A stretch of DNA of 64,000 nucleotides from an uncultured Gemmatimonadota bacterium (GTDB taxonomy: Bacteria; Gemmatimonadota; Gemmatimonadetes; Gemmatimonadales; Gemmatimonadaceae): NCBI GenBank assembly GCA_902826615.1, contig CADEFN010000003.1, positions 62,001-126,000 of the forward strand. Reading direction: 5' to 3'. Shown in pieces: positions 24,553 to 46,377 of this stretch. Both the position numbers and the translations under genes were made by a program. Position 1 is the first letter of the stretch; every line of letters starts with the position of its first letter. The notes beneath the pieces are model-generated. The model saw nothing but the letters and a program-made list of their open reading frames with translations. It did not search any database and had not been told where the DNA came from.

Positions 24553-24639
24553 CGGACAGGGCGGGATTCGAACCCGCGAGTGAGTTTCCCCACCACACGC
24601 TTTCCAGGCGTGCGCCTTCAGCCACTCGGCCACCTGTCC
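24553..24639 (-). tRNA. tRNA-Ser (anticodon GGA)
   Basis: 87 bases with class II long variable arm. Acceptor arms GGACAGG / CCTGTCC, anticodon stem CACGC/GCGTG with loop CTGGAAA (anticodon GGA), variable stem around GTGGGGAAACTCAC, T arm CGCGGGTTCGAATCCCGC, discriminator G. CCA is not encoded. Confidence 0.95.
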
Positions 24640-24747
24640 CTACTTGGATCGATCAACGGAAAGAAGGCGAAAGGGAGATGCACGCTGGCGCCGTGTCTGG
24701 CGCGAGCGGGCATATCGCCCTTTTGCCGTCTGGTCTGATGGGTGACA

Positions 24748-24835
24748 CGGACAGGGTGGGATTCGAACCCACGATACCGTTTCCGGTATGCCGGTTTTCG
24801 AGACCGGTTCCTTCAACCACTCGGACACCTGTCCT
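24748..24835 (-). tRNA. tRNA-Ser (anticodon CGA)
   Basis: 88 bases, class II. Acceptor arms identical to the neighbouring tRNA-Ser (GGACAGG / CCTGTCC). Anticodon stem CCGGT/ACCGG with loop CTCGAAA (anticodon CGA), long variable arm around ACCGGAAACGGT, T arm GTGGGTTCGAATCCCAC, discriminator G, no encoded CCA. Lies 108 bases upstream of tRNA-Ser(GGA). Confidence 0.95.
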
Positions 24836-31444: not shown

Positions 31445-33370
31445 TTACCAGCTCCAGTCGGCCTGCAGACCGGCAAAGAGATTGCGCCGTGGAGCGGCAA
31501 AGTGCACCACCTCCTCGTAGGCCGCGCCGAAGAGATTCTCCGCCCGCAGCACGAGGGCCACCTTCGTGGCGATTCGCTGCGGAGTCAGCCGGACTCGAGT
31601 CGCCGCATCCACCCGCGTGTACGGCGCCAGTTCCACTGGAGTCGCGGGAAAGGTGCTGAAGTCACGGTCGTCGCGCGTGCCTACGCGCAAAACCGTGAGA
31701 TCGTAGCTGGCGCGGCTTCCAGTCCGAGCGGTGACGCCCGCTGACCAGGTGTTGACGGGTCGTCGCAGCAACCGGCTGCCCTGAACAAAAGTCGCCCCGG
31801 CTCCACGGTCGAAGCCGGGATTGTCCACGCGGGTGAGGAGCCGCGTCGCCCCGCCTCGCAACACCAGATCCGGTGTCACACGCAGGGTGGCCTCCAGCTC
31901 TGCTCCACGCGCACGTGCCGCCGCGACGTTGAAGTACGACGGGTCGGTTGGCGTTCTGAAGGTGTACTGGATGAGATCGCGAAAGGACTGATCGAACCAG
32001 GCGAGGGTGACGTCGGCGCGGTCGCTCCGATGTTCGAGTGCCGCCTCCCATGCGCGGGTTCGCTCCGGGACAAGATCGGGATTGCCGACCGAGAACGCCG
32101 TGGAGAACTGCTCGAAGAAGGTGGGCGCCTTGAACGAGGTCCCCAGCCCCGCCCGCACCCGGAGACCGGTCACCAGGTCGAGGGTCGCGTTGGCCCGCGC
32201 GGTGCCAAAGGAGCCAAATGCATCGTTGTCATCCCACCGCGATCCTAACGAGTATCCGAGCCGACCGGCACGCCCGAGGAACTGGGCAAACCCCGATCGC
32301 GTGATCCGGTGCGCGGTAAACCGCGTGGTGCTCACCGAGTAGTTGGAGCTGTCCGCAAGCCGCTGGTGTTCATCAGCCCACTCCACACCCGCCACGGCCC
32401 GGTTGCCTTCGCTCACTCGCACCTCGGCCAGGGCGGCGACGTGACCGCGACGCACCCGTCCGTCGCTGCGATAGGCGTAGAAACCTGCGGTGTCCGCCGG
32501 ATCGTCAGGGGCGTCGCGCGTGTCACCACGCACCTGCATCCATCCCCCCGTCATCCGGAACGTGGTGCGCGGTCCAACCACACGCTGCAACTCGAGCCCC
32601 GCCGAGGTGCGCTTCTCTCCACGGTTGGCGTTGATGTCCACCACCTGACCTGTGCCATCGGTGGGGTACTCGAACCTGTTGTCGCCATGCCGGAGTGTCA
32701 GCGAGAGGGGCAGCGATCCTGACCAGGCCACGCGTCCGCTGACCACCTGGTTGCGGTACGCATTGTTGAACGGCAGGGTGCCGTCGCTGTGCTGCCGCGC
32801 GACATTGCCGTTCCACGAGAGACGGCCCGTGCTGGCACCGGCACCGGCGTCCACCAGCACACTCCCGTAGCTGCCGCCGCCTGCCGAGAGACGTGCCCTG
32901 GGGCGCCCCTCTCCGCGACGGGTTATCAGGTGGATCACACCACTGACGGCATCGCTGCCATGCACCACACTCGAGGGCCCGCGCACAATTTCAATGCGTT
33001 CCACATCGTCGATGGTGAGCGCGCCAAGGTCGATAGCGCCGCCGGGATCGTTCATCGCCACGCCATCGATCATCACCTTGGTGAAATCGCTTTCACCACC
33101 GCGGGTGAACACACTGGCCTGCGCACCAAACGATCCGGCGCGGGCGACGGAGACGCCGGGCACCTGACGCAGGGCCTCGAGCACATGGGTGATCCCGGCA
33201 GCGCGGAGGGCGTCGCCGGAGAGGACGGTGACCGACGCATTGGTGGCTGCGGAGGCAATCGGGACCCGTTCGGCGGTCACAATCAGACGGCGCAGGGTGG
33301 TGCTATCGGGCGTGACAGGTTGCGACTGGAGAATCGCGGGCACGAGGCCGGCGAGGAGAAGGCGGCGCAT
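31445..33370 (-). CDS. btuB: TonB-dependent outer membrane receptor, probably for cobalamin
   Basis: 641 residues. Signal peptide (about 1-18), plug domain with DALRAAGITHVLEALRQVPG and GGESDFTKVMIDGVAMND and DVERIEIVRGPSSVVHGSDA, then a 22-strand-type barrel ending in aromatic Trp. The N-terminal RRLIVTAERVP is a TonB-box-like stretch. BtuB identity is inferred from riboswitch control and from btuFCD on the same transcript; alternative siderophore use is less likely. ATG 33370 follows a TTG one codon upstream; 11 bases after btuD. Confidence 0.85.
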   Translation of the reverse strand: MRRLLLAGLVPAILQSQPVTPDSTTLRRLIVTAERVPIASAATNASVTVLSGDALRAAGITHVLEALRQVPGVSVARAGSFGAQASVFTRGGESDFTKVMIDGVAMNDPGGAIDLGALTIDDVERIEIVRGPSSVVHGSDAVSGVIHLITRRGEGRPRARLSAGGGSYGSVLVDAGAGASTGRLSWNGNVARQHSDGTLPFNNAYRNQVVSGRVAWSGSLPLSLTLRHGDNRFEYPTDGTGQVVDINANRGEKRTSAGLELQRVVGPRTTFRMTGGWMQVRGDTRDAPDDPADTAGFYAYRSDGRVRRGHVAALAEVRVSEGNRAVAGVEWADEHQRLADSSNYSVSTTRFTAHRITRSGFAQFLGRAGRLGYSLGSRWDDNDAFGSFGTARANATLDLVTGLRVRAGLGTSFKAPTFFEQFSTAFSVGNPDLVPERTRAWEAALEHRSDRADVTLAWFDQSFRDLIQYTFRTPTDPSYFNVAAARARGAELEATLRVTPDLVLRGGATRLLTRVDNPGFDRGAGATFVQGSRLLRRPVNTWSAGVTARTGSRASYDLTVLRVGTRDDRDFSTFPATPVELAPYTRVDAATRVRLTPQRIATKVALVLRAENLFGAAYEEVVHFAAPRRNLFAGLQADWSW

Positions 33371-33381
33371 CAATCGAAGTG

Positions 33382-34164
33382 TCAGCGGTGACGACGAAGA
33401 GGAACGAGGGTGGGCGCCCCCACAGCGGGGTCGCGCGAGACAACAAGGGGCCAGCGATACACCTGCTCGAGGATCTCGCCACGCATCACGGCCCCCGGTT
33501 CACCAAACGCCGCGAGGGTGCCTGACGAGAGGAGACCTACGCGATCCGCAAAGCGGGCGACAAGGTTGAGCTGGTGACTCACCACGAGCACCGCGCGGCC
33601 GTGACGCGCCAGCGAGGCAAGCAGTTCGAAGCAGTCCATCTCGTGCGCGATGTCGAGGAAGGTTGTGGGTTCGTCGAGCACCAGCGCCGGCGCCTCTTGC
33701 GCCAGTGCGCGGGCGATACGCACACGCTGCCACTCGCCACCGGACAAGGTGTCGGTGCGTCGCGTGGCCAGTGCTGCGACATCGGCGTCGTGCAGCGCCG
33801 CCTCCACGGCAGTGGTATCCGCTGCGGTCACTGGCCCCCAGGCCCCACGCCAGGGGTGCCGCCCCAACGCCACGTAATCGCGGACGGTCATGGGAAAGAC
33901 AGGCTCTTCGCGCTGCAGCACAACGGCCAGGCGACGGGCGCGCTCACGGTCGCCGTACTCCACCAGAGACCGGTCATCGAGACGCAGACTGCCCCCCGTG
34001 ACGGGCGCGCGTCCGAGCAGTGCGCGCACAAACGTACTCTTGCCGCTCCCGTTGGGACCGACGAGCGCGGTCAGCTGTCCTCGCGCCGCCTGGAGGGTGA
34101 CCTCCGACAGCGCCGGACGATCGGACCCCGGATACCGCACGGTAAGTTCACGCGACTCGATCAT
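33382..34164 (-). CDS. btuD: Cobalamin ABC transporter ATP-binding protein
   Basis: 260 residues. Walker A GPNGSGKST, Q-loop LQREEPVFP, ABC signature LSGGEWQR, Walker B ALVLDEPTTFLD, switch His in VVSHQLN. FecE/HmuV/BtuD subfamily of importers for metal chelates. Overlaps the permease stop by 4 bases. Confidence 0.9.
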   Translation of the reverse strand: MIESRELTVRYPGSDRPALSEVTLQAARGQLTALVGPNGSGKSTFVRALLGRAPVTGGSLRLDDRSLVEYGDRERARRLAVVLQREEPVFPMTVRDYVALGRHPWRGAWGPVTAADTTAVEAALHDADVAALATRRTDTLSGGEWQRVRIARALAQEAPALVLDEPTTFLDIAHEMDCFELLASLARHGRAVLVVSHQLNLVARFADRVGLLSSGTLAAFGEPGAVMRGEILEQVYRWPLVVSRDPAVGAPTLVPLRRHR

Positions 34165-35138
34165 CGGTTGCGCCGCAGCTGCCAGAGGAAGAAGGGGACA
34201 CCCAGCAGCGCCGTCACCGCGCCTAACGGCAACTCGGCAGGCGCCCGCAGTGTCCGCGCCGCCAGATCCGCGAGCAGCACCAGGGCCGACCCTCCGAGCG
34301 CCGCCACGACCAGCGTACGCCGGCTGTTGCCATCGCGCACCACCGCGCGCGCCAGATGCGGGACCATGAGTCCCACGAAGCCCACCAGTCCCGCGGTGGC
34401 CACCGTGGCCGCCGCCAGCAGCGAGGCCAGCACGAAGAGCCGCATCGCCACCCGCTCCGACGCCTCACCTAACGAGGCCGCGGTGTCGCCACCGAGAGCA
34501 ATGACATCGAGCGATCGCGCCATGTGCAGCAACCCGGCTCCCAGCACCGCCACCGCAAGGGCGAGACCCGCCACATCACTCCATCGGGCAGCACTCAGTG
34601 ATCCCATCATCCACCAGAGAGCGTTGCGCTGCGCGGTGGGCGTGGATTGGGCGAGCACCACCATGATGACGGCGTTGGCAAAGGCACCCGTGACCACACC
34701 AGCCATGAGCAGCGATGCGGGCGGCCGTGCGCCCTGCCGATCGCGTCCCAGCATGAGCACTACCCCAACCGCCACCAGCGCCCCGGCAAACGCCCACGTT
34801 GCCAGGGTCCCCAGCCCGGCAAAGCCGAGTCCCGCCGCCATGACCGCCCCCACCGCCGCACCGCCGGAAACACCCAGCAGGTAGGGCTCGGCCAGCGCGT
34901 TCCGGAGTGTGGCCTGCAGCGTTGCCCCGCTCGCGCCTAACGCGGCTCCCACCAGTACCCCCAGGAGAGCGCGCGGAAGACGCAGCTCCCACACGATAAG
35001 CCGCGCCGGAGTCTCCGCACTGTCCCAGAGCGTGCGCCAGACCTCGGCCAGCGGCAGACCAGCCGCCCCCACACCGAGACTGAGGACGACCAGGCCCGTC
35101 ACCAGCAGGACCAGCACCCACACCGCGCGGACGAGCAT
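34161..35138 (-). CDS. btuC: Cobalamin ABC transporter permease
   Basis: 325 residues, about ten hydrophobic segments of the FecCD/BtuC family. RLPRALLGVLVGAALGASGA (N-terminal third), LGGDTAASLG and GLMVPHLAR (coupling region) are family landmarks. Three CGTTAGG words in this one gene (34222, 34468, 34936), all encoding Leu-Gly. The ATG lies two bases past the btuF stop. Confidence 0.92.
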   Translation of the reverse strand: MLVRAVWVLVLLVTGLVVLSLGVGAAGLPLAEVWRTLWDSAETPARLIVWELRLPRALLGVLVGAALGASGATLQATLRNALAEPYLLGVSGGAAVGAVMAAGLGFAGLGTLATWAFAGALVAVGVVLMLGRDRQGARPPASLLMAGVVTGAFANAVIMVVLAQSTPTAQRNALWWMMGSLSAARWSDVAGLALAVAVLGAGLLHMARSLDVIALGGDTAASLGEASERVAMRLFVLASLLAAATVATAGLVGFVGLMVPHLARAVVRDGNSRRTLVVAALGGSALVLLADLAARTLRAPAELPLGAVTALLGVPFFLWQLRRNR

Positions 35139-35140
35139 GC

Positions 35141-35995
35141 CTAACGCCGAGCCCCGGACAGGAGCACCGCCAGGGAGGCCGCTGCCTCACCCAGCCTGGT
35201 CGATGGCTGCGAAACCAGTAGCGTGTCATAGGCCAGCACACGACCCTCGCGCACGGCACGGAGCGCCCGCCATCTCGTATTGGCGAGGATGCGCTCCCGG
35301 CCTTTGGGGGTCGTGAGCACCACGTCCGGATCGCGGCGAATGACGTCTTCGAGAGCGACGTAGAGGGATGGCATGGCCTCGTCGGCGTAGACATTCACCC
35401 CACCGGCCGCATCAACGAGTTCGCTCAGGTAGCTCCCGGCCCCCAGCGTCATGAGTGGCTGATCCCAGACCGGGAAGAAGACACGCAACCGGTCATCCCC
35501 TTGCACCGCGGCGCGGACACTGTCGAGTCGTCCACGAATGACGGAGCCGATGGAATCGGCGGTCTGGCGCGCGCCAAGGAGAGTGCCGAGGGTGTCGACC
35601 GCGACCAGGAACTCCTTGACGGAGTCAATACGCAGTGCGACGACCCGGATTCCGGCCCGCTCCAGCGCTTCGATGGCGGGCGCATTGTCGATCGCCGGAT
35701 ACACGATGACGAGATCGGGACGCAACGCGACCAGTCGCTCGATACTCGGTCGGATGGCGTCACCGACTTCGGGTATGACCCGCACCGTGTCGGGCCAGGT
35801 GTCCCAGCGCGAGCGACCAACCAGGCGTTCCATCGCGCCGAGGGCGACGACGATTTCGGTGGCGCCCGGACCTAACGATACGACGCGCTGCGGCGCGGCC
35901 GGGAGCGGTGTCGTGTCACGCCGCTCACCGCACCCGTTTGTGAGGGCGGCGACCACCAGCAGCACCCGGAGTTTCCGGAACGAAGACGCGGACAT
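35141..35995 (-). CDS. btuF: Cobalamin-binding lipoprotein
   Basis: 284 residues from ATG 35995. Lipoprotein signal with lipobox LTNGC near residue 22, then the class III periplasmic binding fold (RVVSLGPGATEIVVALGA, RPDLVIVYPAID, RDPDVVLTTP). First gene after the cobalamin riboswitch. The frame extends 22 codons upstream into the riboswitch expression platform, which argues against that longer start. The stop codon is part of CGTTAGG (35140-35146), immediately before the btuC ATG. Confidence 0.92.
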   Translation of the reverse strand: MSASSFRKLRVLLVVAALTNGCGERRDTTPLPAAPQRVVSLGPGATEIVVALGAMERLVGRSRWDTWPDTVRVIPEVGDAIRPSIERLVALRPDLVIVYPAIDNAPAIEALERAGIRVVALRIDSVKEFLVAVDTLGTLLGARQTADSIGSVIRGRLDSVRAAVQGDDRLRVFFPVWDQPLMTLGAGSYLSELVDAAGGVNVYADEAMPSLYVALEDVIRRDPDVVLTTPKGRERILANTRWRALRAVREGRVLAYDTLLVSQPSTRLGEAAASLAVLLSGARR

Positions 35996-36037
35996 ACCTG
36001 CTCCCGACTGGAGAGGAATGCCCGCGGACAAATGCCT

Positions 36038-36053
36038 GGCAGCAAGTGCTGCC
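36038..36053 (-). promoter_or_regulatory. Hairpin in the riboswitch expression platform
   Basis: GGCAGC-AAGT-GCTGCC (plus-strand reading) is a perfect stem between the aptamer and btuF. It is a candidate switching element. With no T-tract, sequestering of the downstream ribosome binding region or coupling to a Rho-type mechanism is as likely as intrinsic termination. Confidence 0.5.
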
Positions 36054-36094
36054 TCGCCCACCGAGCCTCCCCCGAGGATCGATTGATGTGGTGT

Positions 36095-36255: not shown

Positions 36256-37362
36256 CTACCCGTCGTCGGACCGGGGTGCAAGGAGCGCGTCGAGTTCGTG
36301 CTGCAAGGTGTCGCGGTAGTCCCTGAGCGCCTCGTGGGAGCCGGCCGCCGTTTCATTGGAGCCGAGGAGCCCATCTACGCCTGCCAGTGCGGCCTGCAGC
36401 TCCAGAATACGCGACAGTGGTTTCGGGCCTGAGGCGGGCCGGGCACGCAGCGACCAGGCCAGCGCGCCTAACGCCGCGAGGCCCAGCCCGGCAAGCCAGG
36501 GCCAGCGGGGTCGGTCGTCGGCCGGGGGCTGCAGCCGGACCTCGATGGTGGCGCCCCGCGGCACATCGCGCCCCAGGAATCGCAGAAAGGTGCGCCCTTC
36601 ACTCGGCACCGCGCCTAACGCTTCGAGCGTACCGCCCTGCACGACACCGGTGGACTCCTCGAGCAACACCTCCATCACGCTGCTGCTGTCGGAGAGCGGC
36701 ACGCGCCAGGGAAAGGCCGACGGAGGCAGCTCGTAGGTGAGCACCAGCTGACGGAGGCCCGGGGCCACCGGCGCCACAATACTGGCACTGCCCTCGCGGA
36801 TGTCGACAGCACTTCCGCTGTAGTCCCCCTGGGTGGACCGGACGTTGCGTGCCCCCGTGGGCACGGCCACGCTGAACGCGGGATCACCGGGGCGGCTGAG
36901 CCGCGTCAGCACGGTATCGTTTGCCAATTCCCACACATCGGTGATCACACGCCAGCCATCAGGCGCGGGCGCGGCCACCACCAGGTGACGTCCCTCGACG
37001 TGGAGGGGTATGCGCACCGACGTGGTATCGAACACATGGATCTCGCCCTCGGGAGCCGGCTCCCCGGCGCGCACCGGTGGTGCGAAGTAGGCGATGCCGC
37101 CAAAACGCGCCGTCGCGAGGTACATCGCCGTGCTGTCCGGACGCTCGACCTTGAATCGATACTCCCCACGTGCGCTCGTAAGCAGCGAATCGATGGCCAC
37201 ACCACCCTGCTGACCTATCCGATGCAACGTGACCCACGAACGTGGGACCGGCCGCTCGCCGTCGACCGTGCTGCGGGCGACGTGACCGGCAACCGTCAGC
37301 GATTGCGCTGAGACCGCGCTCCCCGTGACGACCAGGAGCACGGCAATTCCGCGCCACGTCAC
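36256..37362 (-). CDS. Membrane-anchored protein with carboxypeptidase-regulatory-like domain, unknown
   Basis: 368 residues: signal peptide (about 1-19, SAQ end), a beta-rich periplasmic region starting LTVAGHVARSTVDG that resembles carboxypeptidase-regulatory folds, a single membrane helix at about 300-320 (WLAGLGLAALGALAWSL), then an Ala/Leu-rich cytoplasmic tail. Start GTG overlaps the upstream stop (GTGA). Two CGTTAGG words (36467, 36614). No named family recognised. Confidence 0.6.
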   Translation of the reverse strand: MTWRGIAVLLVVTGSAVSAQSLTVAGHVARSTVDGERPVPRSWVTLHRIGQQGGVAIDSLLTSARGEYRFKVERPDSTAMYLATARFGGIAYFAPPVRAGEPAPEGEIHVFDTTSVRIPLHVEGRHLVVAAPAPDGWRVITDVWELANDTVLTRLSRPGDPAFSVAVPTGARNVRSTQGDYSGSAVDIREGSASIVAPVAPGLRQLVLTYELPPSAFPWRVPLSDSSSVMEVLLEESTGVVQGGTLEALGAVPSEGRTFLRFLGRDVPRGATIEVRLQPPADDRPRWPWLAGLGLAALGALAWSLRARPASGPKPLSRILELQAALAGVDGLLGSNETAAGSHEALRDYRDTLQHELDALLAPRSDDG

Positions 37363-37901
37363 GGATTGAACTTGCCGAAATCCTCGGGCCGCAGGCCGGC
37401 CAGATACTCCTTCAATTCATCGGCCGTCATATCGCTGGTTCGACGTGCGTGTGGTGGTTCGGGCACAATCGCGTCCGGGGGCTCGGACTCTGTCTCGCCA
37501 TCCTCTGGCGGGAGGTTGAGGAGCGACTCGGCCGCAAACACCGGAGAGCCGGTGCGAAGAGCAATGGCGATGCTGTCGGAGGGGCGCGCGTCGACGTGAA
37601 AGACCTGCCCTTCACGCTCGAGCAGAAGCTCCGCGTAGTACGTCCGCGCCTGGACCTGCGTGATGTTCACACGCTGAAGCACCGCGCCAAGTCCCACGAT
37701 GAGCCCCTTGCAGAGGTCGTGAGTGAGCGGGCGATCCTTCCGCACCTGATTGATCTCCAGGAGAATGGATTCCGCTTCGGGCTGCCCGATCCAAATGGGC
37801 AGGATGCGGTCCCCACCGCGCTCCTGGAGAATTACCACGTATGTGTTGGTCGAGCCGTCGAGGCCAAGCCGGCCGACCGTGACTTCCACCATCGGTTCCA
37901 T
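37359..37901 (-). CDS. Bifunctional nuclease (DUF151) family protein
   Basis: 180 residues. LPIWIGQPEAESI, RPLTHDLCKGLI and ARPSDSIAIALRTGSPVFA are the defining blocks of DUF151. Plant and some bacterial members have DNase/RNase activity; most bacterial members are uncharacterised. An acidic/proline linker and a short UVR-like tail (MTADELKEYLAGLRPEDF) follow. Downstream of metK by 27 bases. An ATG three codons in is an alternative start. Confidence 0.85.
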   Translation of the reverse strand: MEPMVEVTVGRLGLDGSTNTYVVILQERGGDRILPIWIGQPEAESILLEINQVRKDRPLTHDLCKGLIVGLGAVLQRVNITQVQARTYYAELLLEREGQVFHVDARPSDSIAIALRTGSPVFAAESLLNLPPEDGETESEPPDAIVPEPPHARRTSDMTADELKEYLAGLRPEDFGKFNP

Positions 37902-37928: not shown

Positions 37929-39173
37929 CTATCGCACGGCGCGCTTCAGTTCAGCAACTTTGTCGAGGCGCTCCCAGCTGAATGCGGTGCCGGAGACAGT
38001 TTTGGATTTCTTGCCGTTTTCACGCGGCGTCACGTACGAGAGCTTGTCCGACGCCCGTCCGAAGTGCCCGTACGCCGACGTGGGCGTGTAAATCGGCTTG
38101 CGGAGGTCGAGCGAGGTGATGATGCCCTTGGGCGTCAGTTCAAACGTGTCCCGGATAGCCTTGGTGATGGCGACGTCGTCGACCAGACCCGTGCCGAACG
38201 TGTTAACCATGACCGAGACCGGCTCCGCCACCCCAATGGCGTACGCCAGCTGGACCTCACAGCGCCTGGCGAGCCCGGCCGCGACGACATTCTTGGCCAC
38301 CCAGCGTGCGGCGTAGCAGGCGGAGCGATCCACCTTGGAGGGATCCTTTCCGCTGAACGCGCCACCACCATGACGCCCCATTCCACCGTAGCTGTCGACG
38401 ATGATCTTCCGACCGGTGAGCCCGCAGTCACCCTGCGGACCGCCAACGACAAATCGGCCCGTGGGATTGATGTGATACGTCGGCTTCTTCTTGCGCCACT
38501 CGCGCGGGATGGCCGGCTCGATGACCTCGGCGACAATCGCCTTGCGAAGCTTCTCCGTGGTGACTTTGTCGTCGTGCTGCGTGGAAACGACCACGGTGTC
38601 GACCGCGACGGGCTGGTCACCTTCGTAGGCCACGGTCACCTGTGCCTTGCCGTCTGGGCGAAGCCACTTGAGGCGACCCGACTTGCGTGCATCGGCCAGT
38701 GCCTTGGTCAGGCGATGTGACAACTGGATGGCGGCGGGCATGAACTCAGCGGTCTCGTCACTGGCATACCCGAACATCATGCCCTGGTCACCGGCACCAC
38801 CGGTGTCCACTCCCATGGCGATGTCCGCCGACTGTTTGTCGATGGTGCTCATGACGGCGCAGGTCTGCGCGTCGAAGCCGAAGCTGGCGTCGGTGTATCC
38901 GATTCGTTCGATGGTCCCGCGCACGATCGCGGGAATATCAACCCAGGTGTTGGTCGTAATTTCGCCCGCTACAACGGCGAGGCCGGTGGTCACCAGCGTC
39001 TCACACGCCACGCGTGCCGTGGGATCGTCGGCCAGGATGGCGTCGAGGACCGCATCGGAGATGGCGTCGGCCACCTTGTCCGGATGTCCCTCGGTTACGG
39101 ATTCAGACGTGAACAGTGTGCGTTCGGACACGGGAGACGAGGTCGATAGGTTCTGGGACGGACGGGCGAGCAA
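37929..39173 (-). CDS. metK: S-adenosylmethionine synthetase
   Basis: Makes SAM from methionine and ATP. 414 residues: [20 protein letters not shown] (ATP/metal), [12 protein letters not shown], and [19 protein letters not shown] (P-loop-like) are present. The longest frame starts at TTG 39173; GTG 39131 ([11 protein letters not shown]) is an alternative nearer the conserved core. No SAM riboswitch was recognisable in the 51-base gap. Confidence 0.96.
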
Positions 39174-39224: not shown

Positions 39225-40988
39225 CTAGTGCAAGGCGTCGCGGATAAAAGAGACATTCCCGAAGGCGGCGCGCAGCCGGAACTCCAGCTCTCGTTGGGCT
39301 TCCGCGGCCGTGCGAGCGTTCACCGCGGCATCGGCAGCTTCACGAGCAAAGGACGCGCTGACCCCGCGGATGATACGCTTGACGAGGGGCACGGCACGCG
39401 GGTTCACACTCAACTGCCGAATACCGAGTCCGACCAGCACGAAGGCCAATAGCGGCTCGGAGGCCATTTCGCCACAGACACACACCTCGAGACCATGCGC
39501 CTGACCGACCTCCGAGGTGCGGCGAATGAGGCGCAACACGGCGGGATGCAGCGGAGTGAACCGCGACGCCATGTTGGCATTGCCACGATCGACGGCCAGT
39601 GTGTACTGCACCAAATCGTTTGTTCCGATGCTGAAGAACTCGGACTCATCGAGAAAGGTATCGACGGCCACGGCGGCCGCTGGCGTCTCGATCATCACGC
39701 CCACCGGCACATCACGCTTGAAGGGAATCTGCTGCGCCTCGAGTTCCTGCATGGCCTCGCGAATCAGCGCGCGAGTGGCCGTCACCTCATCCAGGCTGAC
39801 CACCAGCGGCAGCATGATGCGGATGTCGCCGTGCACCGCGGCCCGCAGCAGGGCGCGGAGCTGTGTCTTGAACAACAGCGGCTCGTCGAGGCACATGCGG
39901 ATGGCGCGCCACCCGAGAAAGGGATTCGCCTCGTGCGGGAAGCCACCTACCGGGAGTTTGTCACCGCCGATATCGAATGTGCGGATCACCACCGGCTGGC
40001 CGTGAAAGGCTTTCGCCACCTTGGTGTACTCCCGGTACTGTTCCTCTTCGTCAGGCATGGAGGCGCGGCCAACCACCAGAAACTCGGTGCGCATGAGCCC
40101 CACCCCTTCGGCTCCGCTGTGCGCCGCCTGATCGGACTCCTCGGGGAGGTCGACGTTCACCCGCACCGTGATGCGCACCCCGTCGGTAGTCACCGCTTCG
40201 GCGTCGGCAATCTTGGCGAGTTCCGCCTCGTCCTGCTTTTCGAGCAGGGCGCGATGGGCAAAGGTCGCCACCTCCGCTTCGCTGGGATTCACGATCAGCA
40301 TGCCACTCGAACCGTCGAGCACCAGCCGTTCGTCGCCACGCAATCGCGATGTGGCGTCCCGCAGCCCTACCACCGCCGGAATTCCCAGCGATCGGGCGAG
40401 GATGGCCACATGCGACGTGCGCGTGCCGGAGTCGGTGGCAATCCCCGCAATGGCCTCACGATCGAGCTGCACCGTGAGGCTGGGAGTGAGGTCGTGCGTC
40501 ACGATGATGGCGTTGGCCCCCTTTGGCACATCCACCGGATCGTGATCGCCGAGCCCGAGCAGGATGGAGAGCACGCGGATGTGGAGATCGGTCAGATCAC
40601 CAACACGCTCGCGCAGCATCGGCACCGTGCTGCGAGCAAAGTGTTGCCGCCACTCCAGCAGCACGACATCGAAGGCTTTTTCGGCGCCGAGATTCTGGCG
40701 GATGTACGACTCGACGCGACTCGTGATCTCGTGGTCGTCGAGTAGCAGGAGCTGCGCATCGAAGATGCGGGCATCTTCTTCACCGGCGTGCCGCTCCGCG
40801 CGCTCGCGCACGGCTCGCAGCCGACCACGGGCGACTCCGAGTGCCTGATGGAGGCGGGCAATTTCTCCTTCGATGTCCTCGTCCGGGATGATGCGCTGGG
40901 GCACGTCCGGCACTTCCCAGTGCAGGAGGTGCACCGGACCAATGACGATGCCGGGTGAGGCGGAGATTCCTTGAAGGGCGCGTTCCAT
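39225..40988 (-). CDS. ptsI: PTS enzyme I
   Basis: Transfers phosphate from phosphoenolpyruvate to HPr. 587 residues from ATG 40988, four bases after the ptsH stop; a GTG at 41003 lies within ptsH. Phospho-His motif GTRTSHVAILARSLGIPAVVG, the PEP-binding region RTEFL, and the GTNDLVQYTLAVDRGN and catalytic Cys region VCVCGEMAS are intact, so it should be active. Last gene of the PTS operon. Confidence 0.96.
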   Translation of the reverse strand: MERALQGISASPGIVIGPVHLLHWEVPDVPQRIIPDEDIEGEIARLHQALGVARGRLRAVRERAERHAGEEDARIFDAQLLLLDDHEITSRVESYIRQNLGAEKAFDVVLLEWRQHFARSTVPMLRERVGDLTDLHIRVLSILLGLGDHDPVDVPKGANAIIVTHDLTPSLTVQLDREAIAGIATDSGTRTSHVAILARSLGIPAVVGLRDATSRLRGDERLVLDGSSGMLIVNPSEAEVATFAHRALLEKQDEAELAKIADAEAVTTDGVRITVRVNVDLPEESDQAAHSGAEGVGLMRTEFLVVGRASMPDEEEQYREYTKVAKAFHGQPVVIRTFDIGGDKLPVGGFPHEANPFLGWRAIRMCLDEPLLFKTQLRALLRAAVHGDIRIMLPLVVSLDEVTATRALIREAMQELEAQQIPFKRDVPVGVMIETPAAAVAVDTFLDESEFFSIGTNDLVQYTLAVDRGNANMASRFTPLHPAVLRLIRRTSEVGQAHGLEVCVCGEMASEPLLAFVLVGLGIRQLSVNPRAVPLVKRIIRGVSASFAREAADAAVNARTAAEAQRELEFRLRAAFGNVSFIRDALH

Positions 40989-40992
40989 GTCG

Positions 40993-41259
40993 TCAGGACT
41001 CACCGAAGCGACTGCTGATGAGTGTCGTCAGCGCCGTGACAGCGTCTTCGGCATCCGGACCATTGGCGCGGAGCACGACAGTCGCGCCGCACTCCGCGGC
41101 GAGCATCATCACACCCATGATGCTCTTGCCATTCACCTCGAGGTCGTCGCGCCCGATGGTGATTTCACTGCGGTACCGCGCCGCGGTCTTGACGATCTCC
41201 GCCGCCGGTCGCGCGTGAATCCCGTTCTTGTTGGTGACCTGCACCTCTCGTTCGATCAT
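40993..41259 (-). CDS. ptsH: Phosphocarrier protein HPr
   Basis: 88 residues. Active His in GIHARPAAE near residue 15 and the regulatory Ser in NGKSIMGVMML near residue 46, the target of HprK, are both present. ATG 41259 overlaps the EIID stop (ATGA); the frame runs further upstream but inside EIID. Confidence 0.96.
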   Translation of the reverse strand: MIEREVQVTNKNGIHARPAAEIVKTAARYRSEITIGRDDLEVNGKSIMGVMMLAAECGATVVLRANGPDAEDAVTALTTLISSRFGES

Positions 41260-42020
41260 GCGCGCACCATCGCCGCCAGGGCAACAAGGGAGAGGACACC
41301 TAACGACCACTTCCACACTTCAAACCGCCCGTGCAGCCGTGCAAGCCCAAGCCCGCCCAGCCCGGCGGTGACCAGCAACCCGCCGAGCACCATCGGGTCC
41401 ACCGGCCCCAACCCGCGCGCAATCGCCAGCGGTATCGCCAAACCGGCCAGCAGACTTCCGGCGCGCGCCAACCATTGCGGGCCCACGCGAAACACCGGAT
41501 GGCCCAGCGCCTTCGCCACATGGAGACCCTCGGCATAGCCGACCTTGAGACCCCAGAACCGCAGGGCCAGGTGACCAACGTTGTACGTCACCAGGAAGGC
41601 AAGTACGGAGCGCCCCGCCCCGGCCCCAATCCCAAACGCCAATATGCCGCACAGCACACTCAGGGGAAGCCAGGCCGCCCAGACCAGCCGGTCTCCCGTC
41701 GCGCCAAGCGGGCCACAGAGGGCGGTACGGAACCGCTCGATCTTCCCGGGATCAACGCCCTCCAGTTCGGCACGCGCCAGGGCACCCACCGCAAACGATG
41801 CCATGTACGGGTGCGCGTTGAAGTACTGGCTCTGCCGCGCGAGTGCGGCACGATAGGCGCTGCCCCCAATGCCTCCGGGAAGCAATCGCAGCGCCGGTTC
41901 GATGGTGAAGCCGATCCCGTTGCCCACGAGAGTTTCGTAGTTCCACGAACCCTGGATGGCCAGAAAACGCACGAAAATGGCCGCGCGGGTTCGCCATGGA
42001 AGCTGAGGAGTCGCCGTCAC
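41256..42020 (-). CDS. PTS mannose/fructose/sorbose-type EIID
   Basis: 254 residues from GTG 42020, which overlaps the EIIC stop as GTGA; upstream residues of the longer frame lie over EIIC. Family landmarks: SWNYETLVGNGIGFTIEPALR and FNAHPYMASFAVGALA, RFRTALCGPLGATGDRLVW, then four membrane segments. Membrane component acting with IIC in transport. Confidence 0.9.
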   Translation of the reverse strand: MTATPQLPWRTRAAIFVRFLAIQGSWNYETLVGNGIGFTIEPALRLLPGGIGGSAYRAALARQSQYFNAHPYMASFAVGALARAELEGVDPGKIERFRTALCGPLGATGDRLVWAAWLPLSVLCGILAFGIGAGAGRSVLAFLVTYNVGHLALRFWGLKVGYAEGLHVAKALGHPVFRVGPQWLARAGSLLAGLAIPLAIARGLGPVDPMVLGGLLVTAGLGGLGLARLHGRFEVWKWSLGVLSLVALAAMVRA

Positions 42021-42700
42021 CGTACAACCAACATAACGAGTGCCGCCAGAAGGCCAGCCACGAAATACCAACGCGTTTGGGCCGTCGTGTGAAAGACCGT
42101 GTAGACGGCTCCGGCCGCCGTCGTTCCGGCGATGGCAATCAGCAGCCAGCGTGTCAGCGAGCTGTCGAGCGACCAGCGCGTCATCGCCAGTGCGTACAGC
42201 GGTGAGAAGATGATCAGACCGGCGGCGGTCATCAGCATACCGCGAACGAGATCAGCGCTCATGCCGGCGACCTGCAGCGCCGTGACGACCTGCCGATTCC
42301 CATCTGCGACCGCGTCGTGACGTTGGCCCGCCCAATACGCGTTGAGCCGCCGGACCTGCACCATCGACCAGCCCCCGACCCAGGCCGTGGCCAGCGTGGC
42401 GATCACGGCCATGAGCATTCCTCCATCGGTCACCGAGGCCGACGTCGCCACCAGAGCGCCACCCACGGCGGAGGACGAACCCCATTCCGGATACCTCGAC
42501 GCCCCAACGGGGAGCGTCTCCAGCGCAAAGGCTTCGACAATCACACCCAGAAGGAGTCCCTGGAATCCCGCACCCATGAAACCCGCCGTGACCGTGCAGG
42601 CCACGATGGGCCGAGACAGCATGGCCTGCGGAAAGCTGACGACATCGAGTCCCAGGACGCCGCCGATAATCGCAACCACACCAATATCGGCGGGGGTCAT
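42017..42700 (-). CDS. PTS mannose-type EIIC
   Basis: 227 residues, about seven hydrophobic segments. ACTVTAGFMGAGFQGLLLGV and VGASRYPEWGSSSAVGGAL resemble the mannose-family IIC (compare RPLVxGPxxGLxLGD). Overlaps EIIB by ATGA and EIID by GTGA. The substrate cannot be predicted. Confidence 0.85.
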   Translation of the reverse strand: MTPADIGVVAIIGGVLGLDVVSFPQAMLSRPIVACTVTAGFMGAGFQGLLLGVIVEAFALETLPVGASRYPEWGSSSAVGGALVATSASVTDGGMLMAVIATLATAWVGGWSMVQVRRLNAYWAGQRHDAVADGNRQVVTALQVAGMSADLVRGMLMTAAGLIIFSPLYALAMTRWSLDSSLTRWLLIAIAGTTAAGAVYTVFHTTAQTRWYFVAGLLAALVMLVVR

Positions 42701-43188
42701 CGGTTGCCCTCGCCCGACAGGACTTCATTCAGCGTAAGGGCGCGTGCGGCTGGCACGTCTTGCGCCGTCACCTCTGCACCTGCCGTGGCCAGCGCCTTGA
42801 GCTGTTCTTCTTCATCACGCGACAGAAACAGATACCGCAGCCGCTGGGTGCGACCCGGGCGATGGTGGATGCCGCCGAGATTTACCGTTGGCACACGTCC
42901 CGAGGCGGTCACGAGCCTCACCATCGTGTCGATGTCACCGGTGAGGAGAATGCCCGCACGCGAATCGTCCTGGTATTTCGCGAGATGCATCACGGCGTCG
43001 TCGACGGAATCGAAATGCACGTCCATCTCCGGGGGGACACCCATACGATACAGCTCCTGCTCCCAGTCGCTGCTCGCCACCTCATCGTCCACCAGGACGA
43101 TGAACTGCACATCGAGTGGTTGCCCCCAGCCCACGACCACCTGGCCGTGTATGAGTCGGTCGTCGATGCGGTAAAGCTCAAGACCCAC
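42697..43188 (-). CDS. PTS mannose-type EIIB
   Basis: 163 residues from GTG 43188, chosen because GGAGG lies eight bases upstream; a TTG at 43203 would place the start on top of that site. RIDDRLIHGQVVVGW contains the active phospho-His. VNLGGIHHRPG is the second family block. Overlaps EIIA by 11 bases. Confidence 0.92.
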   Translation of the reverse strand: MGLELYRIDDRLIHGQVVVGWGQPLDVQFIVLVDDEVASSDWEQELYRMGVPPEMDVHFDSVDDAVMHLAKYQDDSRAGILLTGDIDTMVRLVTASGRVPTVNLGGIHHRPGRTQRLRYLFLSRDEEEQLKALATAGAEVTAQDVPAARALTLNEVLSGEGNR

Positions 43189-43570
43189 GCGCTGGACCTC
43201 CAATCACGGTCAATGCTTCCCTACCCCTCGCCGCCGCATGGAGCGCGGCCGCCACATCGTCGCCTTCCGCGAAGACAAAGTCCAGCATCGCGGCGAGGTT
43301 GACTCCGACCACCACGGCCAGCCCCGGGCGCTCGCGCTGGAGACGCCGGGCTGCCATGGTACAACTTCCCGCCGGAAGATCCGTGAACACCACCGTCGCG
43401 CCGGTGGCGTCGAGGGCCTGACCCAAGGCAGCCGCCACATCAGCCGCACTCATTCCCCGATTTGTCATGGCCTGAAACACCTCGCCGCGGCCGGTGATCT
43501 GATCCACCGCCGACACGATGCCGGCCGCGAAGTCGCCGTGCCCGGCAACGAGCGCACGAATGTTACTCAT
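43178..43570 (-). CDS. PTS mannose-type EIIA
   Basis: 130 residues from ATG 43570, overlapping the hprK end by 8 bases (ATGAGTAA). ALVAGHGDFAAGI holds the phospho-His about 10 residues in, and FTDLPAGSCTMAARRL is the second landmark. The remaining upstream frame lies inside hprK. Confidence 0.92.
   Translation of the reverse strand: MSNIRALVAGHGDFAAGIVSAVDQITGRGEVFQAMTNRGMSAADVAAALGQALDATGATVVFTDLPAGSCTMAARRLQRERPGLAVVVGVNLAAMLDFVFAEGDDVAAALHAAARGREALTVIGGPARGS
43197..43201 (-). promoter_or_regulatory. Ribosome binding site deciding the EIIB start
   Basis: GGAGG, eight bases before GTG 43188 and within the end of the EIIA gene. Confidence 0.65.
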
Positions 43571-44540
43571 CGTCTTCCACCAGGTAGCGACGAACGTCTG
43601 CGGCCTGCCGCATGTGTCCCATGAGACGCTGATTGAAACTCTCCGCCGGGTCCACACCACTGTACCGCAACAAGTGATTCATGGCGATGACCTCGGCAAT
43701 CACCGTGATGTTCTTGCCGGGGTTGAGATACACGGTGATGATCGGCAACTCCACGCCAAGGATGGTCGTCACCTCGCCATCCAGTCCGGTGCGCTCCACC
43801 ACCATCCCTTCGGTCCACTCCTTGAGCTGGACCACCACTTCGATGCGCTTCTGCTGCCGGACAGCATGGATCCCGAAGATGGCTGGTATGTCGATGAGCC
43901 CCACACCCCGGATCTCCATGTAGTGGCGCTGCAGCTCGTGCCCCCGTCCAATCAGCACATCGTTGCCTCGACGCGTGGCCAGCACGAGATCGTCGGCCAC
44001 GAGCCGGTGCCCACGCTCCACCAGGTCGAGCACGCACTCCGATTTGCCAATGCCACTCGCGCCGGTGAACAGCACCCCGACGCCAAAGACATCGGAGAGC
44101 GATCCGTGCAATGTGGTGGAGGGCGCAAAGATGGCCTCGAGAATCGGCTTGGCCCGGCGATAAAACTCGTTGGTCTTGAGTGGTGTGAGAAAGACCGGCA
44201 CGCCCGCGTCGACGGCGAGGTCGAGCATCGGAATCACGAGTTCCTGCCCCTTGGTTACAAAGACACAGGGGATGGGGAATGACAAGAAGAGAGCGAGCTG
44301 GCGACGGCGATCGTCGTCAGACAGCGACGCGAGATATGTCATCTCTGTTTCGCCAATCACCTGGGAACGCTCCGAGGTGAAGCGACCCACATAACCCGCC
44401 AGGGCCAGACCGGGACTGGAGATGTCCGAGTTGCCGACCACCCGATCGCCCCCGTAGTCCCCGCCGAGTTGCTCCAGCGGGACCACCTCTCTCAAGCGCT
44501 CAAGCAGTTTTCCAACGGTGACGACAGGCGAAGGGCTCAC
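43563..44540 (-). CDS. hprK: HPr kinase/phosphorylase
   Basis: 325 residues. P-loop GASGIGKSE, HRLVADDLV, the MEIRGVGLIDI signature and the C-terminal NITVIAEVIAMNHLL. Phosphorylates the regulatory Ser of HPr and can reverse it. GTG start overlaps the hpf stop (GTGA). In Firmicutes it drives carbon catabolite repression through CcpA; no CcpA-like protein is visible, so its output here is unknown. Confidence 0.95.
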   Translation of the reverse strand: MSPSPVVTVGKLLERLREVVPLEQLGGDYGGDRVVGNSDISSPGLALAGYVGRFTSERSQVIGETEMTYLASLSDDDRRRQLALFLSFPIPCVFVTKGQELVIPMLDLAVDAGVPVFLTPLKTNEFYRRAKPILEAIFAPSTTLHGSLSDVFGVGVLFTGASGIGKSECVLDLVERGHRLVADDLVLATRRGNDVLIGRGHELQRHYMEIRGVGLIDIPAIFGIHAVRQQKRIEVVVQLKEWTEGMVVERTGLDGEVTTILGVELPIITVYLNPGKNITVIAEVIAMNHLLRYSGVDPAESFNQRLMGHMRQAADVRRYLVEDDE

Positions 44541-44836
44541 GCCTTGGCTCCCTGGCGAGCGGTCCGTTTTTCACTGGCCACCTGCCGCTCGAGATGACTC
44601 AAGGCAACCGCCAGGGCCGGGCCATAGTATCGTCCGCTACCTTCGGCGACCAGTGACCGGTGCCGCGGCGCACGGAGCACCAGTTCCACCCGGCAGCGGG
44701 TCCCTTCTCGCTCAAAGCGCACTGTTGCATCCACGGTGCGTTCGAGGCGTCGTCCGAGTTTCTCGAGATGCGTTGTTGCGCGTGCCTTGAGGCGGTCGGA
44801 AATGACCGCGTTATGTGCCTGCCATACGATCTCCAT
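44537..44836 (-). CDS. hpf: Ribosome hibernation promoting factor, short form
   Basis: 99 residues from ATG 44836 (GGAGG five bases upstream). KARATTHLEKLGRRLERTVDATVRFE and RVELVLRAPRHRSLVAEG fit HPF/YfiA, which binds the 30S subunit in stationary phase. No C-terminal dimerisation domain, so short form. hpf next to hprK and PTS genes echoes the rpoN-hpf-ptsN-hprK block of Proteobacteria. Confidence 0.88.
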   Translation of the reverse strand: MEIVWQAHNAVISDRLKARATTHLEKLGRRLERTVDATVRFEREGTRCRVELVLRAPRHRSLVAEGSGRYYGPALAVALSHLERQVASEKRTARQGAKA

Positions 44837-44837
44837 C

Positions 44838-45944
44838 TCACCCTCCATGCTTCAAGACGGCCTGCAGATGTCGTTCGGTTTCCAGCGCCGCGCGCTCCCA
44901 GGTAAAACTCTCGGCGAAGAGTCGCCCCGCGGTCCCGAGTTCTTCGACAAGGGCACGATTGTCCGCGAGACGGCGCATGGACCGCGTGAGCTGGTCCACG
45001 TCACCATGCGGCACCAGGAAGCCTGTCACGTCGGGACGCACGGACTCGCGGATGCCCGGGGAGTTGGACGCGATTACAGGGGTTCCGCTCGCCGCCGCCT
45101 CCAGATTCGTGATACCCCATCCCTCCTTGGGCGAGGTCAGCATGAGCGCCCAGGCACGCCGAAGCAAGGCACGCTTGTCCGCTTCGCTGATACGCCCAAG
45201 AAATCGCACGCGGTCGCCGAGGTCAAGCGAGGCCGACAGCTGTTCGAGCTGTGGGCGAAAATCGCCCGCACCCGCAATCTCCAGCCGGGCGGAGGTGTCG
45301 CCAAGCTGCGCAAAGGCCCGAATGATGAGATCGACCCTTTTGTACTTCTTGAGGCGGCCGAGATACGCAAAGACGGGTGTCGCTGCCCGCTCCGCGTGGT
45401 TGGGGGTATATCCGGCGCTGTCGATGCCGCAGTAGATCACCTCGATCCGCTCACGGGCCACGCCACGCGACGTCAGGTCTTCGGCCGTACTCTCGCTGAT
45501 GACCTGGAACGGCACCTTCCGGTACACCAGGGGAATAGGGCGCTCCGAAAGCCACACCACCGCGGCTACGGGTGCTGGCAGCTCCTGGAAGGCCGTTCCA
45601 CCAAAGAGATGCGGAATGACCCCAACCACGGGCGTGGCCCCCCAGCGTGGCGTGAAGAGGGGCACCTTGTTGATGTCTTCGACGATGAGGTCGAAAGCGT
45701 GCGTGGTGGCGAGCTCTCGCCACGCGCGGCGCGCATGAAAGGGAAAGGTGTAACGTGTGCCAGCCCGCACGACGTGCATCCCGTCGAGCTCGGCCGTCGG
45801 CGCGCAGCCCGGCCAGCCACCACACAGCAGCGTTACCTGATGCCCCCGCCGTGCCAGTCGTCCAAATATCTCGTGCAGGTGGATCTCGGCGCCGCCGGCC
45901 TGGGGATTCTCGCGGTCCTGCCAGTTCACCACCAGCAGATTCAC
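44838..45944 (-). CDS. Family 4 glycosyltransferase
   Basis: 368 residues from GTG 45944, one base after the nusB stop. NPQAGGAEIHLHEIFGRLARRGH is the N-terminal Rossmann loop, YLGRLKKYKRVDLII the UDP-sugar domain opening, and EGWGITNLEAAASGTPVIASN the E(x)7E nucleotide-sugar motif. The upstream frame lies in nusB. Likely cell-envelope glycan or glycolipid synthesis; donor and acceptor unknown. Confidence 0.85.
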   Translation of the reverse strand: MNLLVVNWQDRENPQAGGAEIHLHEIFGRLARRGHQVTLLCGGWPGCAPTAELDGMHVVRAGTRYTFPFHARRAWRELATTHAFDLIVEDINKVPLFTPRWGATPVVGVIPHLFGGTAFQELPAPVAAVVWLSERPIPLVYRKVPFQVISESTAEDLTSRGVARERIEVIYCGIDSAGYTPNHAERAATPVFAYLGRLKKYKRVDLIIRAFAQLGDTSARLEIAGAGDFRPQLEQLSASLDLGDRVRFLGRISEADKRALLRRAWALMLTSPKEGWGITNLEAAASGTPVIASNSPGIRESVRPDVTGFLVPHGDVDQLTRSMRRLADNRALVEELGTAGRLFAESFTWERAALETERHLQAVLKHGG

Positions 45945-45945
45945 G

Positions 45946-46377
45946 TCAGAGCCTCCCGAGTGTCCGCGCCACCGCGTCGAGGACCCCGTTGACAAACCGT
46001 GCACTGTCGGCCGAGGCGAACCGCTCCGTGAGATGGAGCGCCTCGCGAATGGCCACACGCGGCGGCACCTCGTCCTGCATGAGTTCGGCCGACGCCAGAC
46101 GCAGCACCGATCGCTCCACGGCGCCGAGTCGCTCCAGCCGCCAGTTGGCGGTGAGGTCGGCCAGGGTGCGATCGATCTGATCGAGGTTGTCGGCCAGCGT
46201 GGTCACCAGGGCCCCGGACAAGCGGCGAAGCTCGGGCGTCAGCGCGAGATCATCCCACAAACGCTGCGCAGCTTTCGGCAGGTCGGCGGCGCTGTTCACG
46301 TCCCACGCGTACACCGCCTGCAAGGCCCGCACACGCGCCCGGCGGCGCACCCGTTGTTCAGCTTTCGTCAGCCGCAT
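45946..46377 (-). CDS. nusB: Transcription antitermination factor NusB
   Basis: 143 residues from ATG 46377, overlapping ribH by 20 bases. RRRARVRALQAVYAWD at the N-terminus, RLGAVERSVLRLASAELM and PPRVAIREALHLTERFAS, then SARFVNGVLDAV, are the NusB blocks. Acts with NusE in rRNA antitermination. ribH-nusB adjacency is widely conserved. Confidence 0.95.
   Translation of the reverse strand: MRLTKAEQRVRRRARVRALQAVYAWDVNSAADLPKAAQRLWDDLALTPELRRLSGALVTTLADNLDQIDRTLADLTANWRLERLGAVERSVLRLASAELMQDEVPPRVAIREALHLTERFASADSARFVNGVLDAVARTLGRL

Follow-up and report, generated by a model that had tools for sequence, protein, structure and literature searches.

A regulatory group of enzyme I (EI) proteins of the phosphoenolpyruvate (PEP)-dependent sugar phosphotransferase system (PTS), group R, has been reported from Proteobacteria, Chlamydiales, Chlorobia, Planctomycetes and Leptospira (Comas et al., 2008; PMC2405797, in the accessible sections of that study). 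According to the same sections, the proteobacterial regulatory cluster encodes EI-R, HPr, HprK and a mannose-type enzyme IIA (IIA-Man) near rpoN, the cluster of Desulfovibrio vulgaris holds a putative mannose-class transporter, and the subunits IIB, IIC and IID were perhaps ancestral in the regulatory cluster and lost in most proteobacterial lineages. For Brucella melitensis, the available part of a further study (PMC2937029) describes an incomplete PTS in which hprK adjoins genes for a IIA-Man-like protein and for NPr, HprK phosphorylates the conserved Ser of NPr, and the relay works with EIIA-Ntr and EIIA-Man. Behind these clusters stands the broader question of how a PTS that imports sugar turned into a regulatory one without a permease, as found in many Gram-negative bacteria. 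Here we analyse a PTS operon on the minus strand, at positions 39,225 to 44,836 of a 64,000-nucleotide stretch of DNA (the window) from an uncultured Gemmatimonadota bacterium (assembly GCA_902826615.1, contig CADEFN010000003.1). The operon belongs to a complete PTS gene set that occupies the same place across most of the phylum, and in one genus (g52) the importer seems to have gone while the reporting part remained. The system probably imports a sugar and reports the energy state of the cell. No paper describing the PTS of Gemmatimonadota was found in the open-licence literature; the one paper found to bring together Gemmatimonas, HPr and the phosphotransferase system was PMC3162934, in whose accessible part mentions of Gemmatimon- amount to one figure legend and one reference.

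Judged on cluster content, the operon resembles the EI-R/HprK cluster of Comas et al. (2008) in encoding an EI without a GAF domain (none by Pfam in the window EI), HPr, HprK and IIA-Man together, and it resembles the D. vulgaris cluster, as far as that source describes it, in holding a mannose-class transporter alongside them. It differs in its Gemmatimonadota host, in the retention of IIB, IIC and IID in most of the phylum, in a cluster without ptsN, in intermediate loss states within one genus, and in RapZ, which was found in 0 of 16 genomes and was dropped as a candidate PTS partner. With the Brucella PTS, in the portion described, it shares hprK beside genes for IIA-Man-like and HPr/NPr proteins and a nearby gene for an enzyme of an S-adenosyl compound, whereas Brucella has no permease and a GAF-bearing EI-Ntr; only g52 resembles it here, and the source genome, with IIB, IIC and IID in the window, does not have a permease-less PTS of the Brucella type. 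To this prior work Gemmatimonadota add a further phylum mostly holding the complete form, plus loss intermediates: related genomes with and without IIBCD, IIA or HprK at one slot open the sequence of losses, and the function that survives transport, to direct test.

A complete PTS gene set across Gemmatimonadota

Read from 44836 to 39225 on the minus strand, the operon contains hpf, hprK, IIA, IIB, IIC, IID, HPr and EI, and all eight predicted proteins scored above their Pfam cut-offs:

44537..44836, minus strand: hpf, encoding a short homologue of ribosome hibernation factors of the HPF/S30AE type, 99 amino acids from the ATG at 44836 (PF02482, 35.6 bits, cut-off 23.7)
43563..44540, minus strand: hprK, HPr(Ser) kinase/phosphorylase (PF07475, 197 bits; PF02603, 90 bits; TIGR00679, 323.5 bits, cut-off 240)
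43178..43570, minus strand: EIIA of the mannose type, with His11 (PF03610, 35.0 bits)
42697..43188, minus strand: EIIB of the mannose/sorbose type, start GTG 43188 or TTG 43203 (PF03830 PTSIIB_sorb, 129.7 bits)
42017..42700, minus strand: EIIC, divergent mannose-class permease subunit (PF03609 EII-Sor, 27.8 bits, cut-off 26.3)
41256..42020, minus strand: EIID, mannose-class permease subunit, start GTG 42020 overlapping the IIC stop (PF03613 EIID-AGA, 87.8 bits)
40993..41259, minus strand: HPr (ptsH), with His15 and Ser46, true start at about 41259 (PF00381, 109 bits; the sole PF00381 match in the genome)
39225..41003, minus strand: EI (ptsI), start GTG 41003 or ATG 40988 (PF02896, 353 bits, PF05524 and PF00391; TIGR01417, 531.6 bits, cut-off 341.7)

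Most neighbouring genes overlap, by 4 bases (hpf/hprK, IIB/IIC, IIC/IID and IID/HPr) or by 8 (hprK/IIA). Against the NCBIfam model yfiA the hpf product reached 27.2 bits, under the cut-off of 40.9.

The first-pass annotation of the window had described these proteins as a full set with its catalytic residues and the regulatory Ser of HPr in place, and the alignment of relatives bears this out: each PTS catalytic residue is invariant wherever a letter is present. In counts that include the short fragments L132 to L138, whose genomes recur as L139 to L145, this holds for His11 of IIA (110/110), His19 of IIB, the phosphorylated His in the motif RLIHGQV (100/100), both His15 and Ser46 of HPr (111/111), and the Walker Lys/Ser and signature Glu/Arg of HprK (114/114). 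In EI, His198 is present in 109 of 110 sequences with one gap, and Cys510 in 101 of 110, the nine others being gaps in cut sequences.

The phylum sample comprised 200 genomes at least 90% complete, including the source genome (5.9 Mb, 99% complete). PF03609 (IIC) was found in 166 of them and in 82 of 91 genera, which rules out an operon peculiar to this genome, and nearly always as one copy per genome; G123 has three matches, and G037 and G152 have two each. Stretches around the IIC match were fetched from 99 genomes and, with the window, gave 100 loci. The series hprK-IIA-IIB-IIC-IID-HPr-EI is complete and collinear in 96; three of the other four stop at a contig end, and the fourth, L126, is rearranged after IID. 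In that operon (9708-10724) the match to IID breaks off early, and the locus lacks HPr, EI, metK and bfn though the contig continues. Among the best 80 of 281 relatives in a scan of contigs with IID, 77 are titled Gemmatimonas or gemmatimonad group, two 'bacterium' and one Kuenenia (an unchecked label).

The surroundings of the operon are likewise shared, with ribE, nusB and a glycosyltransferase family 4 (GT4) gene on the upstream side and metK and bfn on the downstream side recurring in most loci. In the window the flanks adjoining the operon are:

44838..46058, minus strand: GT4, open frame directly upstream of hpf, true start probably near 45950 (Pfam Glycos_transf_1, 133 bits; profile match in 105 of 107 distinct loci)
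37929..39173, minus strand: metK-like gene, downstream flank, which we take to be S-adenosylmethionine synthetase (profile match in 100 of 107 distinct loci)
37359..37901, minus strand: bfn, bifunctional nuclease domain protein, downstream flank (PF02577, 120.8 bits; 96 of 107 distinct loci)

The genes upstream of GT4 are presumably nusB-like and ribE-like. Although hpf and hprK precede the EII genes, the earlier statement that they lead the operon is doubtful as regards the transcript: the GT4 stop and the hpf start are 1 base apart, and with GT4 directly 5' of hpf the two genes may not head it. A scan for promoters and terminators found nothing beyond shuffled controls.

Between ribE and metK there is no gap of more than 500 bases in most loci, so that the slot has no room for sugar genes and their lack is general. 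This agrees with the first-pass annotation, which had seen no sugar hydrolase, isomerase or repressor adjacent; none was present among the frames read at 33-50 kb of the window, ten of whose proteins were run through Pfam. CcpA, also reported as not seen, had no match over the NCBIfam cut-off genome-wide (best LacI-type match 124 against 442 bits), so catabolite repression of the firmicute type, in which CcpA acts with HPr-Ser46-P, is not indicated.

Fold, selection and specificity of the permease

AlphaFold2 models of IIC and IID as single chains had predicted local distance difference test (pLDDT) values of 95 and 92.5, respectively, and in a fold search at E <0.001 both matched chains of mannose-class PTS (man-PTS) alone, with template modelling (TM) scores to the query reaching 0.78 (IIC) and 0.62 (IID). 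At the sequence level, ManY was retrieved by a profile of 59 IICs (E 1e-20) and man-PTS IID by a profile of 58 IIDs (E 2e-41), the latter across the first 200 of 249 positions. The system is thereby like ManXYZ of E. coli and the firmicute man-PTS (PDB 6k1h, 7dyr, 8hfs and 9wjr) in the phosphorylation histidines of IIA and IIB and in the predicted ManYZ fold and homology of IIC and IID, which place it in the mannose/fructose/sorbose class. Unlike ManY, however, IIC has 227 amino acids, no C-terminal tail, 18% identity and replaced core motifs, and unlike man-PTS IID, the C-terminal third of IID is unmatched in sequence.

Within the phylum the core of both subunits is fixed: D19, Q25, R30, E56 and R117 are invariant in 59 of 59 IICs, and F72, N73, P76 and D115 in 58 of 58 IIDs. 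The IIC signature D-x5-Q-x4-RP is present in 98 of 100 sequences, and most IICs have a form of LPxGASRYPE (P64 in 58/59; R69 and P71 in 55/59), where ManY has DEFQFHRP and GWMNIGAAVAPD at the positions matching the two signatures. Median ratios of non-synonymous to synonymous substitution rates (dN/dS), from up to 30 of 45 close pairs, were 0.20 for IIC, 0.13 for IID, 0.14 for IIB, 0.08 for HPr, 0.11 for EI, 0.15 for GT4 and 0.10 for metK, and no internal stop occurred among the IIC matches listed. With its ManYZ fold, invariant core and purifying selection, the permease has the appearance of a functional ManYZ-type transporter, and IIC and IID very probably transport something.

A reading in which IIC and IID are decaying leftovers of a lost transporter, retained by operon position alone, could appeal to the divergence of IIC, which has the weakest Pfam match and, among the PTS proteins of the operon, the lowest median identity to its window counterpart (31%, against 39% for IIA, 41% for IID, 55% for IIB and 59% for HPr; hpf is lower still at 27%), and to the disappearance of IIB and IIC from eight g52 genomes described below. 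It is already disfavoured, and in our judgement highly improbable, given dN/dS values for IIC and IID near that of the flanking GT4, the lack of internal stops and the invariant core residues.

None of IIA, IIB, IIC and IID reached the curated cut-offs of the NCBIfam subfamilies EII-Sor, EIID-AGA, pts-sorbose and EIIA-man, which suggests a separate branch of the mannose/fructose/sorbose class. We take the permease as a separate specificity branch, with a substrate that is probably not mannose itself. An assignment to mannose or hexosamine from motifs was dropped: when set beside ManY and AgaC of E. coli and five plasmid IICs, the IIC motif resembled neither that of ManY nor that of AgaC/AgaW.

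Ordinary catabolic uptake of mannose, glucosamine, N-acetylglucosamine or a like sugar, with the catabolic genes elsewhere in the genome and regulation incidental, would fit an intact permease under purifying selection. It would also fit the facts that the closest NCBIfam match of IIA is the galactosamine/N-acetylgalactosamine IIA, though at 56.9 bits against a cut-off of 130, and that an Asp at the D19 position is common to IIC here and to Aga-type IICs. However, the slot between ribE and metK lacks room for sugar genes in most loci, the IIC motif matches neither known type, HPr and EI survive in eight genomes without IIB and IIC, and a PtsN-like acceptor is present, and we judge such a purely catabolic role unlikely.

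Permease-less genomes in genus g52

Among the IIC-less genomes of the phylum, 20 were searched for the remaining components. IIB was found in none of the 20, while HPr was kept in nine and hprK in seven. Eight of the nine HPr-bearing genomes belong to genus g52, and the ninth is G119. In the eight g52 genomes, searches for IIC, IIB and PF02378-type EIIC, the extent of the permease search, were negative (0/8 each), whereas HPr was found in all eight, hprK in seven and a PtsN-like EIIA in all eight. Between hpf and EI, five of these genomes have hprK-IIA-HPr, two have hprK-HPr and one has HPr alone; no IIB, IIC or IID was found in any of the eight PTS loci, and the g52 HPr retains His15 and Ser46. 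In L144, a g52 locus, hprK matches lie in two overlapping frames (9068-10019) in a frameshift-like arrangement; this genome is also without IIA.

The seven g52 HprKs form a monophyletic group (support 1.0) in a midpoint-rooted HprK tree of 107 sequences. This group sits within a clade of 20 (0.98), the other 13 members of which carry the permease; support is weak (0.39) at the node that unites g52 with its closest sister lineages. As the g52 HprKs are nested among those of permease-bearing genomes, the losses look derived. These genomes support the view that HPr, EI and HprK can persist where the permease is missing.

The HPr-keeping genomes also stand out in a second respect. A strong PtsN-like match (E <1e-20) was present in all nine of them and in one of the 11 HPr-less genomes among the 20; of the other HPr-less genomes, four have no match and six have one that is weaker (E between 2e-11 and 5e-7), five of these six in frames of more than 700 amino acids. 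The plain hypergeometric value for this co-occurrence, 6e-5, is descriptive only because the genomes are related. A distance of 8.2 to 8.5 kb separates the PtsN-like gene from HPr in each of the eight g52 genomes, and among six frames between bfn and ptsN at one g52 locus a SelB-like factor alone was found by Pfam. The weaker EIIA_2-like matches of G043, G076, G084, G097 and G101, which have no HPr match, lie in frames of 722-757 amino acids and perhaps reflect a PTS-independent use of the fold.

Candidate acceptors, ribosome hibernation and the probable role of the system

The source genome encodes, on another contig, a candidate for a second acceptor of HPr, P0001, a 150-amino-acid EIIA_2 protein with an IPH motif and the one such protein in the genome:

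L159:8180-8632 (genome G000, contig C7, about 187.2-187.6 kb), divergent from a gene adjoining dihydrouridine synthase: P0001, standalone PtsN/fructose-IIA-like EIIA

P0001 is likely to accept phosphate from the single HPr of the genome. The first-pass annotation had named additional EII complexes sharing this HPr as evidence against its own regulatory reading, and such evidence was found in part: a second, PtsN-like EIIA is present, but in a search that covered these two EIIC families the genome has one PF03609 permease and no PF02378-type EIIC. In a set of 60 genomes that includes the source genome, seven others have a PF02378-type EIIC; L147-L150 are among the carriers, and in L148 the EIIC stands with an EIIB in a frame of 1102 amino acids. 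The PtsN-like EIIA and the proximity of hpf to PTS genes recall PTS-Ntr (EI-Ntr, NPr and PtsN), from which the present system differs in a PtsN-like gene away from hpf and HPr, an EI without GAF by Pfam and the presence of HprK.

We favour, with reasonable confidence, a dual-purpose PTS that combines sugar import with PtsN-type regulation. PEP would phosphorylate EI, and EI would phosphorylate HPr at His15. From there the phosphate could pass in one branch (a) to IIA, then to IIB and on to a sugar crossing the IIC/IID permease, and in another (b), suggested by the co-occurrence described above, to the PtsN-like EIIA encoded elsewhere, which would report PEP and sugar flow to its targets. At high energy HprK might slow both branches by phosphorylating Ser46 of HPr, by analogy with Brucella and firmicute precedents. 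Branch (a) is the one missing from the eight g52 genomes. As a tentative extension, Gemmatimonadota may keep, phylum-wide, a transport-plus-regulation PTS of the type that Comas et al. (2008) inferred for an ancestor of Proteobacteria, in which one HPr/EI/HprK chain feeds both PtsN and a man-class permease of its own specificity, with the D-x5-Q ... LPxGASRYPE motifs, and the flux of one sugar sets PtsN phosphorylation; g52 would then record a stepwise conversion to a regulatory system through loss first of IIBCD, then of IIA and then of HprK.

Several observations weigh against this dual role. Of the 34 genomes without PF03609, only the 20 listed were searched and the other 14 were left out. 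Within g52 itself, G185 has a weak PF03609 match (E 5e-4), the sole one of the 166 below the cut-off, which could be explained as a remnant, as a divergent permease or by chance. In G119 the contig ends just upstream of HPr, so that its missing genes, IIC among them, may reflect an assembly gap. The PtsN link is a co-occurrence in which eight of nine cases come from one genus; G002 has PtsN-like matches, yet no HPr, HprK or IIC, and P0001 falls under both NCBIfam cut-offs (PtsN, 70 against 139 bits; fructose IIA, 91.5 against 103.5 bits). On the transport side, the PF03609 score of IIC exceeds its cut-off by only 1.5 bits. Furthermore, the lactococcal mutants IIC D25Y and IID N28K, changes near the pocket, lost mannose uptake (PMC10783117, in its accessible part), whereas in an uncertain alignment the position of IIC Asp25 is an unconserved one with Pro in the window, and that of IID Asn28 is Asn in just 50 of 58 IIDs.

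The first-pass annotation had proposed that the set, with its permease, may have a mainly regulatory role, relaying PEP and energy state to ribosome hibernation, through hpf, or to envelope synthesis, through GT4. The persistence of HPr, EI and HprK without IIB and IIC in g52 agrees with the regulatory half of this proposal; the ManYZ fold, invariant core and dN/dS of 0.20 and 0.13 fit a working transporter. As for its targets, in 85 of 107 loci hpf precedes hprK at a distance of no more than 200 bases, and in two more the distance is 260 to 382 bases; in each of the eight g52 loci without the permease hpf still adjoins what is left of the PTS genes; and GT4 precedes in nearly every locus. The permease-less regulatory PTS with HprK of Brucella, as partly documented in PMC2937029, is a precedent for such a relay, and the accessible part of PMC3162934 already records hpf near PTS genes in rpoN clusters. 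However, in searches made at the locus, and not elsewhere in the same genomes, hpf was not found at 20 of the 107 loci, and in 19 of these the gap between GT4 and hprK is 5 to 157 bases, leaving no room for it. Since hpf departs while the PTS stays, and stays in g52 while the permease departs, the association is real but loose. The proposed link to ribosome hibernation has this loose adjacency as its sole basis, and we know of no phosphorylation site on HPF, whether proposed or demonstrated. A permease fold kept under selection also speaks against a relay of the whole set, and we regard that reading as improbable. A dedicated relay from the PTS to hibernation is not indicated, though the adjacency in 85 loci is not explained away either.

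Apparent swaps in the order of hpf were spurious, the profile used having shifted onto the glycosyltransferase frame. The source genome has a second, sub-threshold HPF-type match, and an HPF match in another genome (G189:C1:5048865-5049134) contains one in-frame TAG. Elsewhere in the window, positions 31445-36061 hold genes that we take to be a TonB-dependent receptor with periplasmic-binding, permease and ATPase genes, a BtuBFCD-like uptake set, and two tandem tRNA-Ser genes (GGA and CGA) lie at 24553-24834 on the minus strand.

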